Shown here piece after piece: positions 30,622 through 47,876 of a stretch of 47,876 nucleotides of DNA. Each line of letters starts with the position of its first letter. Within the stretch, counting starts at the first letter, position 1. The position numbers were made by a program, and so were the translations under genes. The notes beneath the pieces were generated by a model. That model searched no databases. It was not told the origin of the DNA and saw nothing but the letters and a program-made list of their open reading frames with translations. Source of the stretch: Candidatus Omnitrophota bacterium (lineage in GTDB: Bacteria > Omnitrophota > Gorgyraeia > Zapsychrales > Zapsychraceae); NCBI GenBank assembly GCA_015233405.1, contig JADFXT010000016.1:1-47876 (forward strand), in the 5' to 3' direction.

Positions 30622-31190
30622 ATTTGCACCACCTGTTTTCTTGTTTGGTTTATTGTTCCATTATTATCTATGATAAAATTCGCCAAGCGAATCTTTGCTT
30701 TTAAAGGCATCTGCGCCTTGATCCGATTTCCCGCCTGAACCTTGGAAATCTTCAGTTGTCTAACCGCCCGGGTTATTTGTTTTTGTCGATGGGCTTTGAC
30801 AACAACAGAAACATCGACTTCTTTATGTAAGCCGGATTCAAACAATAACGGCACGTCCAAAACCAAAATGCCTTGTTTGCCCCGGAGAGATTGAACCACT
30901 TTTCTGATTTCTTTTTTGACCGCCGGATGAATGATCTTCATAAGCTTGTTTAATTGCGCTCTGTCCTTAAAAACAATTCCCGATAATTTCTTGCGGTCGA
31001 TCATGCCGTCTTCATTCAAAATCTTTTGTCCAAACACTTTGACGATCGGACGATAACAAGACCCTTGCGGCGTCATTTCTTGATGAGCGATCTTATCCGC
31101 ATCGACGACAAATGCGCCAAGCTCAACAAACATTGCGGCAACCGTCGATTTTCCTGTTTTCAAACTCCCTGACAATCCGACAACAAACAT
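30579..31190 (-). CDS. coaE: dephospho-CoA kinase
   Basis: The product is 203 aa from the ATG at 31190, with GAGGA 7 nt upstream. It completes CoA synthesis by phosphorylating dephospho-CoA. The P-loop is [12 protein letters not shown], where the family usually has GGIGSGKS, so the GxxxxGK[ST] core is kept but the loop is atypical. [10 protein letters not shown] and the lid region ([26 protein letters not shown]) and [13 protein letters not shown] are family-like. It overlaps glgA upstream by 31 nt and rho downstream by 43 nt. Confidence 0.92.
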
Positions 31191-42191: not shown

Positions 42192-45100
42192 TTACCCCAC
42201 CTTATCCATTGGAGACAATTCCACCTTCTTCTCCAAATTTTCCTTGCCCGGCTCTGCCAGCCCCAGCAACGGGAAAATGCTTGGCAGCGGCACGATGTTG
42301 ATAATCACCGGCGAAAGATTATCGACGGGCACATCCTTAAATTGTTCCATCACCTTTGGATCGAACTGGAATGTGAATTTACCTTTCCCATCGCCTTTTA
42401 AATTAATATTGTTCATGTCAATACCACCAACCTCATCAGGTTTCTTAGTCACAAGCGCGTGGTCGACGGATGTTTGACTGTTGATAATTTCCAAATATTC
42501 CGATATCCTTTTGCCTGTCGGTTGAGATCCATATGGAACCTGAGTTCCACCAACCCAAGCAAGTACCTCTTCCATCTCGGGCGTCCCAGGATGATAAATA
42601 ACTTCAAAATCATGAGAAGGATAATGCCCGCTATCCCGAATCCTTTGTACATCAGAAATATTTTCAGAAGAAATCAAATAATGATATTGAGAATCTAATT
42701 TGCTCTCAATCAAGCTTCTTGCTTCATCTTCCGAGATCATCGCCTTGTCCGTCCCGATCAGAGACTCGGAGATTTTGTTTCCCTGCGCGATGGTGTAGCC
42801 GGTCACGGTGACTTTGCCCGTCGGGAAGATAGAATCTTCTAACCCGTCCATTTTGACGATATCGGCAAGTCCTTTTGCGATATCCTCAACAGAAACCAAA
42901 TCAAAATCATATCCTTCAATCCGCAAGCTGAGCGCAAACGGAAGAAGCTCGCTTGTCTCCGTCGACGTGTTGGCAAAAAGCCCGGCGGATTTCGACAATT
43001 TCTCAGAAACCTGCTGATACATTTTTGCAATGGAATCATCCACGGCCTTTAATGCTTCAACAGCTTCCTCTATAAGGCGAGCGTTCGAAGAACTTTTAAT
43101 AACATCGACCTCGGCCTTAATTCTTTCCTTCTTGGAAATATTTAAGGCGGCTAATTTTGCCCTCACAGCCTTTCGGGATTGCGGGGTCGACTCTAATCTC
43201 CTTAAGTGACTGAACAACGCTTCTTTAATCTGATCTTGTTTCACGAAACTTTTTGCTTTCAAATAACGGCGAGCCAAAACATTGACCGCCTGAGTTTGCA
43301 CGTCGACATTGATACTATTTAACCGCTTCATAAACCACGCACTCGAACCAGGGAACGTCATCATGGCCTGGTCCGCCGGAGCGCCTTGAGATTCAAAATT
43401 ATCCCATGCCTGAAGGTTTCTTAACTGATCAAACGCTTCTTTCATCGCCTCAGCATCGTTAGAATACTGAATGACTCTCGAATTGGCCATTCTCATCTCT
43501 GAGGAAGGAACATTTAACGCCGCAAGCGCGTCTCGCACGGCTTGACGGGATTGAACAGTAGAGCCGTCTTTCCCTATCAAATGGTCAAAGAATCCTTGTT
43601 TGATCTTTTCTTGGAGCCTAGGATTGTTTTTGTAAAAGAAACTCAAAAGTTTAATGGCGCTTAACTGCACCTTCGGATGCGCCGCATCCGTCAATTTATG
43701 ATTAATGTACCAATTTGTTATAGGTGAAATCGCCATCATCGCCTTGTCCAGCTTTGGCGCATTGTCAGGTAATTTCTCGCCTTTAACAACGTACCAGCTC
43801 CCTGGAACCTCAACTTTTTCAAAATGTCCCGGCATCCCTTGGACACGTTCATAATGAGCTGGATCATCAACCCATACTTGTGCGTCTTGACCAATATCAT
43901 ATCCAATGTGCCCTGAATCTGGGACATATTTATACTCCACAGGATCCTCAACCCATGTAGGCTGATCTGTACCAAGATCATGTTCAAGATGCCCTGTCGT
44001 CGCTTCGACCCACTCCCTGCTAGTCGTTGGCGCAGAATAACGAACCTCAAAATCGTATCCCGATCGATAAATTTCTAAAGCTTCCCTAAAGAGAGAATCA
44101 AAGTTAGAAGACACTCCTTTTTCTCTCAGCTTGGTGCGGATTTCATCTTCTACCGACATCGCCTTGGTCTCTGGCGCTGTCTTGTTTTCTTTTGTCGCAT
44201 CGACTCTTTTTGCTGTATTATTTCCTGTTGCTGCATTGCTTTCTTTTTCTAATGTATACGGAAGCTTATACCATTCTGCAATCCCGAGATCGATATAATA
44301 CTCGGTAAGATCCTTCTTATCTGTACTAAGAAGCCGTACTTCTTTGCCTTCAAAAAGCGTCTTTCCTGTCTCAATCATCTCTTCAAATTTCGCATCCTCC
44401 GCCGCAAGCCTATAGCCCGCCCATGCTGAATCAATATGTGCAGATTCATCTTGAAGAGATGCATTTGTCCCATCCACTAACGGATGCTCCTCCTCATACC
44501 GTTCAAAATAACTGTCTGCGCTAGTACTATCATATGGAATATAAATATATTTATGTACTATGTCCCACAAGACAGAACGTACAGAACTTTTCGCAAAATA
44601 AGCCTCTGCTTGTTCAGATGCCATCATCGCCTTGTCCGTCTTCGCGGCGTCGTAATATTTGAAAATATTACTTGTTTCCTCTGCCGCATTAGCGGGAGAG
44701 TCTGAGCCGTGAATACGATTGACCGTTAAGTTGGAGTCCTCGCCTTTAAAATGTTCACGGATCTGTTCTACAATGGCGCGAATTTCCTCGACGGCTTTCG
44801 GAGATTTGGTTTCAATGAATAAAGGAATAACCGGGCCACTTGTGACATAATCCAAAAGCGTCTCATAAAAATCTTTGCCCTTTTTACTGGAATAAAACTC
44901 GGCGGCCTGTTCTCTGGTTAAAGTAATTTGCGGTCCCATAGACACTTTAATATCTTCTCCATTTAGTTTCTTTTCGCTTAAATAACTCATGATAGCTTCC
45001 TGATAGGCCTTGACGGCATCAGGCTTAAGCATCGCATAGGTGTTATTACCTTTAAGGATCCCGTCTAAAAAGGCCGTGCGGAAATCTTTATTGTTAACAT

Positions 45101-47876
45101 CCGCGACCTTAACGACTAAACCGTTAGAATAAATCTTAAGTGAAATATTCTCAAGAACCGGGCGGCCATTTTCCGTCGGGAAAAGATGAGCCATTTCATT
45201 GTAACCGGTTAAATCAAAAAGCCCTTTGTCAAAAGCACTTTCAATTTTGACTTTGCCTCTAAAAATAGGATTTAATATTTTGACTTTCCCTAGAATCGTG
45301 AGCGATTTTAAATCTTTCATACCAATGCGCTTGCCGAAAGCATTAATATAATTCTGCTGTTCACTCCAGAACCCTTCCTTATCATCCAAAGTGATTTCCG
45401 GCGGAACCGCGTTAGGCTTAGAATCCCGCAACACCCATTGCTTGGCATCAAAAGTATAATAATCACTTTGCTGAAGCAGAATGTCATAATTCTTTTTGAC
45501 GGGCGTAAAAAATTCCGTACGTGGAATGCTGACAAAATACAAGAGTCGGTCTAAACGGTCTTTTCCTTTAAGCCCCAGCTCATCACTGACTTCTTCTAAA
45601 ATAGCTTTTGCCTTCGGCTCAGTCAAAAAGAACTGGTTTAAATTATGCATATTCGTTCCGATAGCCCCATCGATAGGAACATATTCCTCTTTATCTGTGT
45701 CAAAGCCCTTCTGAAGCTTCTTTTCGATATAAACTGAAGAGATAACTTCCTTCAACTTTTCTTCTCCAAAATCACGCACCAACTTAACAAAAATTTTGTG
45801 CAAAAGTGACGTGTTGATATAAAAGATATTCGTATTAAACGGCTGATTGCCTTCCTTTTGGCCGCCCTGAATGAAATCTTTCTCTTGATCGACGGCTTTA
45901 GCGTCGGCAACTTCCATCTGCGCAGGGACAGGGACTTGGACGATTTTACCGTCTATTACGACGTCCACCATACGGACTCCGTCCTTGCCGCCCTTATTAT
46001 CAATGGGCGTCGCCACTGTCGTAAGTTTAATGATAGGTAAATTCCTGCGGACCATGGCGCCGGCGATCACATCACTGACGCGGCTGTTGATATTATCCCC
46101 GTTATAAAAAACACGGATGTGTGTTTGCCCTTCAGGGATTTGAGCTGTGTAAGCATCCCATAAAAATAAATACCCCCAATAACCGTGCCCGCCGGGCTGA
46201 CGGTAACGGAACATCGGAGTATCGCTCTTTAAAGCCAAACTTTTTAAATCTTTATTGACCCACGGAAGGTCGGCTTGTTCCCGGTAAGGAAGAATCTCCA
46301 CTCCGGCGGCTTCAAACATTTGGCGATAAGTCCTTTTGACGATTCTGTCGGCATCAAGGCGGTCTAAGAGATATTCTTGATTAAACAACTTCTCATAAGA
46401 TTTTTTGGATTGCCAATTGACCAACGGCTGAAGCTCGACTCCAGCGAATATTTTCTCTTTTAAAATCTCAATCAATTGAAGGAATTTCGCCTCTGCGATA
46501 GAGACAAAAACTTTTCCTTTCTTCGACGGATTCTTAATGCCCAATGACGCGACAGAAATTTCATAACCCAAATCCGTTCCTTTTGCGCCGCGAACAACTG
46601 TTATCTCTTTGTCGGCATAGCGAATAACATATCCGGTTTTCTTATCCGTGGCAGGGTCTATATATTCCTCGACCGTGATTTTTTCTCCCTTGGCGTCTTC
46701 TTTAGCTTGGGCTAAAATCATTTCTTTTAAAAACTCAATACGATCTAAACTTTCTCCAATTCCGCCGTCCATGGAATTTAAGGTCATATAAGCCTTCTTC
46801 GCGGCTTCGGCATTTTGAGGATCCTTTACCAAATCCTCATAAGACTCTTCTCCAAGCCAATTCTTTCTCTGTGTTTCATCTAAATCTGTGGCAAGAATGA
46901 AATTCTGGTCAGCCGGATGGTCATTGACATGCTTTTTGTAATCTAAAATGATTTTTATCGGTTGATTGGATTTATTATCTGTGTTGCCATATCTACGGGC
47001 AAACGCTTGTTTCCACATCTGGCCCAAATAATCCAAATCCGTATCTTTCAAATCAGGATAAAGTTTCTTGGCCTGCGCAAACTGTTCCTTCATTTCCGCA
47101 TCGGTCAGCATGGCGTGGTCGACGGGCTTTTTATTATCCGTCACAAGCGCGGAGTCAGAATAGTCTTCGGGAAGCATCTCCCAAGATCCGCCCTCTATCG
47201 GCGTTCCTGCTGGAATAACTGACCCTATTGAATAATTTTGTTTCCAAATATACCCGTCAACAACTTCTCCATCATAATCACCATCTCTTGAAGGCGCGCT
47301 ACTCATCATCGCCTTATCCTTCTTTCCCGCGATGTTGACCGACATATTGAAATCCTGCCCGACGATGGAACGTGCGATTTCTTTGGCGCTGGCGGTTTTC
47401 ATGGCCAAGTCAGCATCTTTAAACCCACCGGAGAAATATTTCTTAGGCATAATTTGCTGGGTCTTAGGGTCATACTCTTCCTTCATATAGTTATAGACAC
47501 CCTTTTTATAGGCTTCCATGTACTGCGTATAAATTTCTTCTTTGGCTTTCGGATTATTTTCATCAATGCCTGCGACTTTATTTTTATTGATATACGACGA
47601 GGAAAGGATGCTATTGCGGACTTTCTCTTTATACCACTTAGCTAAGATGAGCGAATGATAGATCTGGCGAAGTGGAGCGAAATTCTTGCCGGTGTTCACT
47701 TCCTTCTCAATGGCGGGAAGGATTATTTCTTTGATGATAGAAGAAAGTTTGTCATTCCCGCGAAGGCGGGAATCCAGTAACCCGTTTTTAGACCCTGGAT
47801 CCCGGGTCTGCGCCCGGGATGACAAAGAAGAAAAAGCGGGATGACTAGAAGCAGCTTGACTGGAAGTAGATTGATT
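42192..47876 (-). CDS. giant modular protein with DxAM motifs, partial (5' end outside window)
   Basis: The frame is open to the window edge; at least 1894 residues are visible. Residues below are numbered from a TTG at 47825. Order: a repeat-encoded segment (1-25); a helical domain to about 165; a UDP-sugar pyrophosphorylase-like domain (about 380-880); a nucleoside diphosphate kinase domain (about 927-1058, with NRIHGSDS and His1039); GH-x-x-x-D-x-G-x-D-x-x-x-WV-x-DP-x-x-Y repeats (about 1278-1345); two homologous roughly 100-aa helical modules (about 1369-1480 and 1494-1600); and a C-terminal GGIDMNN domain (about 1800-1850). Motifs DKAMM, DSALV, DHAML, DKAMM, TKAMS, DKAMM, DQAMM, DKAMI and DHALV are at 170, 224, 236, 1064, 1220, 1360, 1485, 1693 and 1788. 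I associate this style with Omnitrophota giant proteins; the overall role is unknown. Confidence 0.92.
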   Translation of the reverse strand, partial: NQSTSSQAASSHPAFSSLSSRAQTRDPGSKNGLLDSRLRGNDKLSSIIKEIILPAIEKEVNTGKNFAPLRQIYHSLILAKWYKEKVRNSILSSSYINKNKVAGIDENNPKAKEEIYTQYMEAYKKGVYNYMKEEYDPKTQQIMPKKYFSGGFKDADLAMKTASAKEIARSIVGQDFNMSVNIAGKKDKAMMSSAPSRDGDYDGEVVDGYIWKQNYSIGSVIPAGTPIEGGSWEMLPEDYSDSALVTDNKKPVDHAMLTDAEMKEQFAQAKKLYPDLKDTDLDYLGQMWKQAFARRYGNTDNKSNQPIKIILDYKKHVNDHPADQNFILATDLDETQRKNWLGEESYEDLVKDPQNAEAAKKAYMTLNSMDGGIGESLDRIEFLKEMILAQAKEDAKGEKITVEEYIDPATDKKTGYVIRYADKEITVVRGAKGTDLGYEISVASLGIKNPSKKGKVFVSIAEAKFLQLIEILKEKIFAGVELQPLVNWQSKKSYEKLFNQEYLLDRLDADRIVKRTYRQMFEAAGVEILPYREQADLPWVNKDLKSLALKSDTPMFRYRQPGGHGYWGYLFLWDAYTAQIPEGQTHIRVFYNGDNINSRVSDVIAGAMVRRNLPIIKLTTVATPIDNKGGKDGVRMVDVVIDGKIVQVPVPAQMEVADAKAVDQEKDFIQGGQKEGNQPFNTNIFYINTSLLHKIFVKLVRDFGEEKLKEVISSVYIEKKLQKGFDTDKEEYVPIDGAIGTNMHNLNQFFLTEPKAKAILEEVSDELGLKGKDRLDRLLYFVSIPRTEFFTPVKKNYDILLQQSDYYTFDAKQWVLRDSKPNAVPPEITLDDKEGFWSEQQNYINAFGKRIGMKDLKSLTILGKVKILNPIFRGKVKIESAFDKGLFDLTGYNEMAHLFPTENGRPVLENISLKIYSNGLVVKVADVNNKDFRTAFLDGILKGNNTYAMLKPDAVKAYQEAIMSYLSEKKLNGEDIKVSMGPQITLTREQAAEFYSSKKGKDFYETLLDYVTSGPVIPLFIETKSPKAVEEIRAIVEQIREHFKGEDSNLTVNRIHGSDSPANAAEETSNIFKYYDAAKTDKAMMASEQAEAYFAKSSVRSVLWDIVHKYIYIPYDSTSADSYFERYEEEHPLVDGTNASLQDESAHIDSAWAGYRLAAEDAKFEEMIETGKTLFEGKEVRLLSTDKKDLTEYYIDLGIAEWYKLPYTLEKESNAATGNNTAKRVDATKENKTAPETKAMSVEDEIRTKLREKGVSSNFDSLFREALEIYRSGYDFEVRYSAPTTSREWVEATTGHLEHDLGTDQPTWVEDPVEYKYVPDSGHIGYDIGQDAQVWVDDPAHYERVQGMPGHFEKVEVPGSWYVVKGEKLPDNAPKLDKAMMAISPITNWYINHKLTDAAHPKVQLSAIKLLSFFYKNNPRLQEKIKQGFFDHLIGKDGSTVQSRQAVRDALAALNVPSSEMRMANSRVIQYSNDAEAMKEAFDQLRNLQAWDNFESQGAPADQAMMTFPGSSAWFMKRLNSINVDVQTQAVNVLARRYLKAKSFVKQDQIKEALFSHLRRLESTPQSRKAVRAKLAALNISKKERIKAEVDVIKSSSNARLIEEAVEALKAVDDSIAKMYQQVSEKLSKSAGLFANTSTETSELLPFALSLRIEGYDFDLVSVEDIAKGLADIVKMDGLEDSIFPTGKVTVTGYTIAQGNKISESLIGTDKAMISEDEARSLIESKLDSQYHYLISSENISDVQRIRDSGHYPSHDFEVIYHPGTPEMEEVLAWVGGTQVPYGSQPTGKRISEYLEIINSQTSVDHALVTKKPDEVGGIDMNNINLKGDGKGKFTFQFDPKVMEQFKDVPVDNLSPVIINIVPLPSIFPLLGLAEPGKENLEKKVELSPMDKVG
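42275..42464 (-). other. C-terminal DHALV-GGID domain of the giant protein
   Basis: This covers residues about 1788-1850: DHALVTKKPDEVGGIDMNN, then KFTFQFDPKVMEQFKD, then LSPVIINIVPLPSIFPLLGL. I recall C-terminal GGID-x-(L/M)-(N/S)..FDP-x-M-x-x-F..PVII-x-I-x-P domains with a preceding D-x-A-(M/L) motif ending other Omnitrophota proteins. It may be a sorting or attachment domain, by analogy only. Confidence 0.6.
44652..45047 (-). other. nucleoside diphosphate kinase domain inside the giant protein
   Basis: YAMLKPDAVKAYQEAIMSYL matches the N-terminal KPD-x-V strand and helix of NDPK; QITLTREQAAEFYSSKKGKDFYETLLDYVTSGPV matches the LT-x-x-x-A-x-x-x-Y..F..L..Y-x-x-SGPV block; and NRIHGSDSPANA carries the phosphorylated histidine (residue 1039) and the downstream serine and aspartate. 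The spacing between blocks is that of free NDPK, with a modest extra stretch before NRIHG. Confidence 0.85.
45186..46688 (-). other. UDP-sugar pyrophosphorylase-like domain inside the giant protein
   Basis: RYRQPGGHGYWGYLFL, HIRVFYNGDNINSRVSDVIAG, RRNLPIIKLTTVATP, FNTNIFYIN and RTEFFTPVKKNYDILLQQSDYYTFD follow the order of the UDPGP family (uridine-binding loop, NxD motif, F-N-T-N strand, P-V-K-x-x-x-D-L segment). The usual N-terminal L-x-GG-x-GT-x-x-G signature is only RGAKGTDLG here, so activity is doubtful. The likeness is from motif order, without a score. Confidence 0.65.
47751..47823. repeat. GTCATTCCCG repeat element translated within the giant ORF
   Basis: GTCATTCCCGCGAAGGCGGGAATCCAG at the left end and CCCGGGATGAC at the right, with the family's inner arms. 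It lies in phase within the open frame, giving the peptide SSRAQTRDPGSKN followed by GLLDSRLRGNDK. The frame is open on both sides of it. Confidence 0.85.

Follow-up and report, generated by a model that had tools for sequence, protein, structure and literature searches.

Organization of the giant ORF

The window analysed here is an entire contig (C7) of 47,876 bases from a Candidatus Omnitrophota genome, and one of its ends is occupied by a giant modular ORF of which 1894 amino acids are visible (Table 1). Since the frame runs open to the contig end, the ORF is truncated at its 5' side. The contig breaks at a palindromic repeat, the probable cause of the break, and thus the ORF retains only the second half of a conserved N-terminal domain, referred to below as the N-domain. 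A contig end identical to that of the window was found in C5_55641. Residues are numbered along the stop-to-end frame; the original prediction counted from a TTG at 47825, and its numbers are converted by adding 17.

Table 1. Features of the giant ORF in the window (aa, residue of the stop-to-end frame)
Feature	Position	Strand	Remarks
Giant modular ORF, 1894 aa visible	42192..47876	-	Open to end of contig C7
In-frame stretch with palindromic repeat element	47739..47876	-	75-bp element at 47748-47822
N-domain, C-terminal half (IIKEIILPAIEKEV...KKYFSGG)	47421..47738	-	
Junction motif DLAMKT, aa 156	47394..47411	-	Position-5 variant
Junction motif DKAMMS, aa 187	47301..47318	-	
Junction motif DSALVT, aa 241	47139..47156	-	
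Junction motif DHAMLT, aa 253	47103..47120	-	
Passenger UTP-glucose-1-phosphate uridylyltransferase-like domain, aa 524-866	45279..46307	-	Pfam PF01704, E 6e-11
Passenger nucleoside diphosphate kinase (NDK) domain, aa 945-1073	44658..45044	-	Pfam PF00334, E 4e-19
Junction motif DKAMMA, aa 1081	44619..44636	-	8 aa past NDK domain
Junction motif DKAMMA, aa 1377	43731..43748	-	
Helical module, copy 1	43377..43733	-	Begins directly after motif; 36% identity to copy 2 over 107 codons
Junction motif DQAMMT, aa 1502	43356..43373	-	
Helical module, copy 2	43002..43358	-	Begins directly after motif
Junction motif DKAMIS, aa 1710	42732..42749	-	
Junction motif DHALVT, aa 1805	42447..42464	-	Ahead of C-terminal tail
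Conserved C-terminal GGID tail, ~75 aa	42195..42428	-	32 matches in genome, alignment

Nine copies of the pentapeptide D-x-A-(M/L)-(M/L/I/V) had been reported in this ORF, and eight of them are present (residues 187, 241, 253, 1081, 1377, 1502, 1710, and 1805), compared with 0.26 expected from residue shuffles (maximum of 3 in 2000); the ninth, placed at residue 1220, reads ETKAMS. The list had also missed the junction-like copy DLAMKT at residue 156, right behind the N-domain. The two homologous helical modules of ~100 aa, described as following DKAMM and DQAMM directly, are real, and their relatives in two other giants likewise begin directly after DxAM[LM]. Similarly, DHALV does precede the C-terminal GGID domain, 7 residues upstream of the tail.

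No NDK besides the module of this ORF was found in the assembly, which is 84% complete. By sequence inspection the module retains HGSDS and lacks much of the loop that usually precedes it, which suggests that an active enzyme is not required of every module.

A family of giant proteins sharing one motif

About 31 ORFs of the window's genome end in the conserved GGID tail, whose 32 matches in the genome mostly terminate ORFs that are 700-4000 aa long. The set analysed comprises 32 ORFs (67 kaa), namely the 31 tailed ones and one truncated relative; it was gathered from search matches, and the census may be incomplete. Giants whose 5' end is intact start with a signal peptide of the Sec type, in most cases terminated by AQ, and continue with the N-domain of ~300 aa, which ends in KYFSGG. 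No known Pfam family corresponds to the N-domain, and a PDB fold search with its model (pLDDT 77) gave no match at E<=0.001. The tail of the window's ORF matches no Pfam or NCBIfam model, the LPXTG, PEP-CTERM, and Por-type sorting tails included. Its predicted structure consists of only two short helices of low confidence (pTM 0.27) with no match in PDB, and the conserved tail is thus apparently unstructured.

The modules between the N-domain and the tail differ from ORF to ORF. They include NDK, UDPGP, adenylate kinase, galactokinase, epimerase, UroD, HPr, PGM, CoaD-CoaE, ARMT1, GDPD, PRTase, methyltransferase, and TPR types as well as many of no known type, so that several independently folded protein types are encoded together in single ORFs, as in polyproteins. 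Paralogous modules evolve under purifying selection (dN/dS 0.19-0.45 for the measurable pairs). A canonical paralogue of the CoaE module of another giant is present in the window at 30648-31184. In two adjacent giants (C45:39539-50143 and C45:50486-62506), as many as 10 PRTase-CE-like modules stand in tandem, and a motif recurs about every 300 aa within these arrays.

Examination of all giants confirmed the D-x-A-M core of the predicted pattern and changed its periphery: position 5 is filled by T, M, V, A, S, L, or I, and position 6 by a small residue. The giants (67 kaa) contain 178 copies of the resulting motif D-x-A-M-[TMVASLI]-[TSAGV], counting sites within tandem arrays that are not independent of one another, versus 1.1 copies expected, and the motif is absent from the 154 other complete ORFs (>=200 aa, 55 kaa) of the same loci. 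Single-residue near-misses stay at background (D->N 1, D->E 1, A->T 0, A->V 0), while GAT replaces GAC at 61 of the 178 sites and each of the four Ala codons appears; conservation of the motif is therefore all-or-none and acts at the protein level. About seven positions, [TSGA]-D-x-A-M-[TMVASL]-[TSAV], carry the information, and the flanks are unconserved. Shuffles and near-miss counts rule out chance or composition as the origin of the motif.

At the DNA level, the sites in the giants of the window's genome (G000) show a bias for GAC over GAT and for GCG/GCC over GCA/GCT. GAC encodes the D of the motif in 66% versus 35%, and the third base of the position-5 codon (ACG, ATG, GTG, CTG) is G in 60% of sites versus 25%.

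The genome also encodes a giant of a second class, at C46:22825-114756 on the reverse strand (loci L204-L208), whose open frame spans 30,644 aa or more and is cut by the contig end. This ORF has neither N-domain nor tail and contains one strict motif match, which equals background. The motif is thus not general to giant proteins; together with its absence from the 154 ordinary ORFs, this assigns it to the N-domain/tail family.

Placement of the motif and its possible role

The placement of the motif strongly favours the proposal that it demarcates junctions. Only one of 207 sites lies within a Pfam domain, versus 12 expected; the outcome named beforehand as a refutation, motifs falling inside folded domains, was not seen. 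Blocks of homology between paralogous giants end within 8 aa of a motif in 38 cases (9.9 expected). In addition, a motif is found within 45 aa upstream of 29 of the 31 GGID tails and within 60 aa downstream of 24 of the 28 N-domains. A short conserved sequence at the borders of units that avoids their interiors is what a polyprotein displays.

A further regularity concerns export signals. A motif lies 4-32 aa ahead of the start of 16 of the 36 internal hydrophobic segments, whereas 4.9 would be expected (P ~7e-6), and three of the four matches to the Tat consensus in all giants closely follow D-x-A-M. Examples are an export signal with a Tat motif (DNAM followed by STRREFIGDVAGGG), a lipobox-like module (DSAM followed by TVTHNQSLAKTLLTALLITVGVNLFVGC), and a complete-looking export signal (DAAM followed by MTKWVSAVAFAGALAFMNMQPATAQ). 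Sec, Tat, and lipoprotein signals normally require a nearby free N-terminus.

These observations suggest, with a probability of roughly 0.5, that the motif is a processing site of bacterial polyproteins that is cut by a trans-acting protease. The primary chain would consist of a Sec signal peptide, the N-domain, variable modules, and the C-tail, the modules being cytosolic-type enzymes, repeat proteins, and proteins seemingly bearing their own Sec, Tat, or lipoprotein signals. By reading the motif, the protease would separate the N-domain, the modules, and the tail from each other, and a single cleaved ORF would take the place of an operon. Cleavage after residue 4 agrees with the arrangement of fixed and free positions, with D in P4, any residue in P3, A in P2, M (some Q or L in relatives) in P1, a hydrophobic residue or Thr in P1', and a small residue in P2'; a cut between A and M is also possible. 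A Sec signal in front of the N-domain is hard to square with Tat-, lipoprotein-, and cytosolic-type modules further along the same chain, a conflict that would be resolved most easily if cutting took place before export.

The modules that follow the motif resemble native N-termini with signal peptides, and Met is fixed in position 4. The same features could arise if the ATG (or ATG ATG) of the motif restarted translation, so that modules would also be made separately from a single mRNA. Such an internal start is very improbable: no Shine-Dalgarno-like purine enrichment is seen at -12 to -4 relative to the D codon (0.01-0.09 bit), the upstream D and A are fixed as protein, and in some copies Met is replaced by Leu or Gln. 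A docking function, in which many exposed D-x-A-M sites per chain would bind a partner in assembly such as a scaffold, an export chaperone, or a shell protein, agrees with the repeated, exposed, and tight consensus and with flanks poor in hydrophobic residues (T as the second codon base in 11-16% versus 29% at several near positions). Nevertheless, docking gives no reason for sites located exactly at both ends of modules or in front of signal peptides and Tat motifs, and we consider it quite improbable.

Candidates for the putative processing protease were sought within and around the family. The N-domain contains no invariant His or Cys in the alignment, and, along with the lack of a PDB fold match at E<=0.001, this led us to reject it as the protease. 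No recurrent family was found among the genes next to the giants. Caspase-like C14 peptidases are missing from the window's genome and from the related genomes listed, and in view of their absence from the N-domain-rich relatives, caspase-like recognition of the D was rejected. Thus, the N-domain, the neighbouring genes, and the C14 family yielded no candidate for a cognate protease. Five HtrA-like Trypsin_2 genes exist in the window's genome, one of them 340 bases upstream of a giant, and these genes are only a lead.

The DNA sequence of the junctions reveals a second process. In several relatives the junction codons are near-identical within a gene and different between genes, and their flanks are unrelated, as exemplified by GAC GGC GCG ATG CTG in L194 and GAC CCG/GGG GCG ATG GTG in L195. 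The mutual information between the gene and its x codon reaches z=5.8 in the relatives and z=3.2 in the window's genome. Together with the biased codons for D, Ala, and the fifth residue, this within-gene homogenization indicates that modules were seemingly gained and swapped at the junctions. One may go further and regard the motif as a joint that is never cut, at which modules are duplicated or exchanged by recombination within and between giants and which persists because it is tolerated as a linker and supplies a short homologous sequence. The ends of homology blocks at motifs and the preference for GAC and for G in the third base of codon 5 agree with this explanation. However, a joint maintained as DNA should have changed into non-synonymous neighbours as well, and these stay at background while synonymous variants are common, and the Tat and Sec signals after the motif would be left unexplained. 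We therefore find an uncut joint unlikely, and for the same near-miss and codon data a pure DNA scar is rejected as the whole story.

Hence, of the three roles originally offered for the motif, namely cleavage, docking, and a scar of shuffling, cleavage is the best supported, by the internal Sec and Tat signals and the sharp conservation at the protein level, and the scar holds in part, given the homogenized DNA. Module shuffling at the junctions also contributes and is compatible with the processing site, which would be needed at each new joint. As a tentative overall picture, somewhat short of an even chance, dozens of loci per genome in a clade of bacteria would encode whole sets of unrelated secreted and cytosolic proteins as giant polyproteins, which are cut at D-x-A-M by a dedicated protease and evolve by module swaps at these same junctions.

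If this is true, operons would be replaced by polyproteins, and the poorly understood giant proteins of Omnitrophota would acquire a processing logic, by which a few unreadable large proteins turn into hundreds of bounded modules, each of which can be annotated singly. A new protease specific for a sharply defined sequence would also be implied, and it could serve as a tool. Should the chain stay uncut, a six-residue junction conserved at the protein level, with 178 copies within a single genome and drift between lineages, still provides a new approach to bacterial module shuffling.

Relatives and comparable systems

The N-domain was detected in 56 of 193 Omnitrophota genomes, all of them belonging to the class of the window's genome, and many copies per genome are common. 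The motif is thus not general to Omnitrophota, for which a search across the proteomes of the phylum had been proposed. The named examples of the N-domain are nearly all from Omnitrophota; one locus (L151, CAISRK010000157.1) is in a bin labelled Bacteroidales, into which an Omnitrophota contig was probably mis-binned. The giants of other genera likewise have D.AM as their most frequent gapped triplet (59 versus 3.8), and position 5 is mostly L or V, giving D-x-A-M-L-[SAGT]; in position 4, Gln and, less clearly, Leu substitute for Met above chance. An apparent restriction of the motif to the window's genome was an artefact of scanning for ATG-AYG, since position 5 is Leu or Val in the relatives. 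The lineage-specific drift of position 5 is expected if one recognition factor reads all sites of a genome.

Bacteria are the textbook users of operons, and polyproteins with conserved junctions are known from viruses and a few eukaryotes. To our knowledge, genome-wide polyproteins with a dedicated junction motif have not been described in bacteria, and their use in a bacterium would be new. In viral polyproteins processed by chymotrypsin-fold (3C-like) proteases, the protease is a part of the polyprotein and P1 is Gln. The giants share with them a tight recognition sequence of the P4-P2' type at domain borders and differ in that no protease was found within the giants and P1 would be Met. The FbcH precursor of Bradyrhizobium (cytochrome b/c1) is another polyprotein from a bacterium, split at a signal sequence within the chain; unlike the giants, it represents one gene for two proteins, which signal peptidase separates, and it has no dedicated junction motif. 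Polymorphic toxin systems likewise combine a constant N-terminal trafficking part with variable modules behind it, whereas the giants have a constant C-terminus, the GGID tail, a variable middle, and metabolic-enzyme modules, and no recurrent immunity-type neighbour accompanies them.

The closest functional analogue that we found is the RbcS polyprotein of Euglena, where the decapeptide linker NMAAMTGEKD between the units is excised (PMC4938576). Like the giants, the RbcS and light-harvesting polyproteins of Euglena combine one ORF, many units, a short conserved linker, and a leader signal, and they are processed by a trans-acting peptidase that has not yet been identified (PMC4938576). The A-M-T core common to the Euglena linker and our motif may be a coincidence. 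The Euglena units are identical repeats made for a eukaryotic plastid and their cleavage has been shown, whereas the giants are bacterial, join unrelated modules, and would be cleaved judging from their sequences; they also have ~31 loci per genome and a conserved N-domain and C-tail.

Giant ORFs of more than 20 kb, including one for a 39,678-aa Velamenicoccus protein, have been reported in Omnitrophota (PMC10066038; PMC12419801) and tied to predation or adhesion (PMC10066038; PMC12419801; PMC12057145). The accessible parts of these three papers make no mention of a motif of the D-x-A-M kind, and our literature search revealed neither the motif nor a comparable bacterial system. The reported ORFs resemble the present family in phylum, multi-module make-up, predicted export or membrane segments, and scarcity of annotated domains. 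The present family differs by its size, mostly 0.7-5.7 kaa, and by its N-domain, tail, and motif, all three of which are lacking in the Velamenicoccus-sized ORF of the window's genome. The longest family member in this genome, with 4007 aa or 12 kb, is below the >20 kb that defines giant ORFs (Seymour et al. 2023).

Finally, the 75-bp palindromic repeat of the window ORF (Table 1), read in frame as SSRAQTRDPGSKNGLLDSRLRGND, lies within the linker of the N-domain and recurs in paralogous giants (e.g., L066, L071, and L078), its copies being near-identical and at the equivalent place. Other in-frame repeats (VGAGFPRPDDKGRGNRAPT and QTKDHRQKTIDQPSAEKRS) occupy the same spot of the N-domain linker in other giants, and shorter repeat pieces are scattered across the loci examined. 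These in-frame repeats are much like the palindromic elements of Rickettsia.
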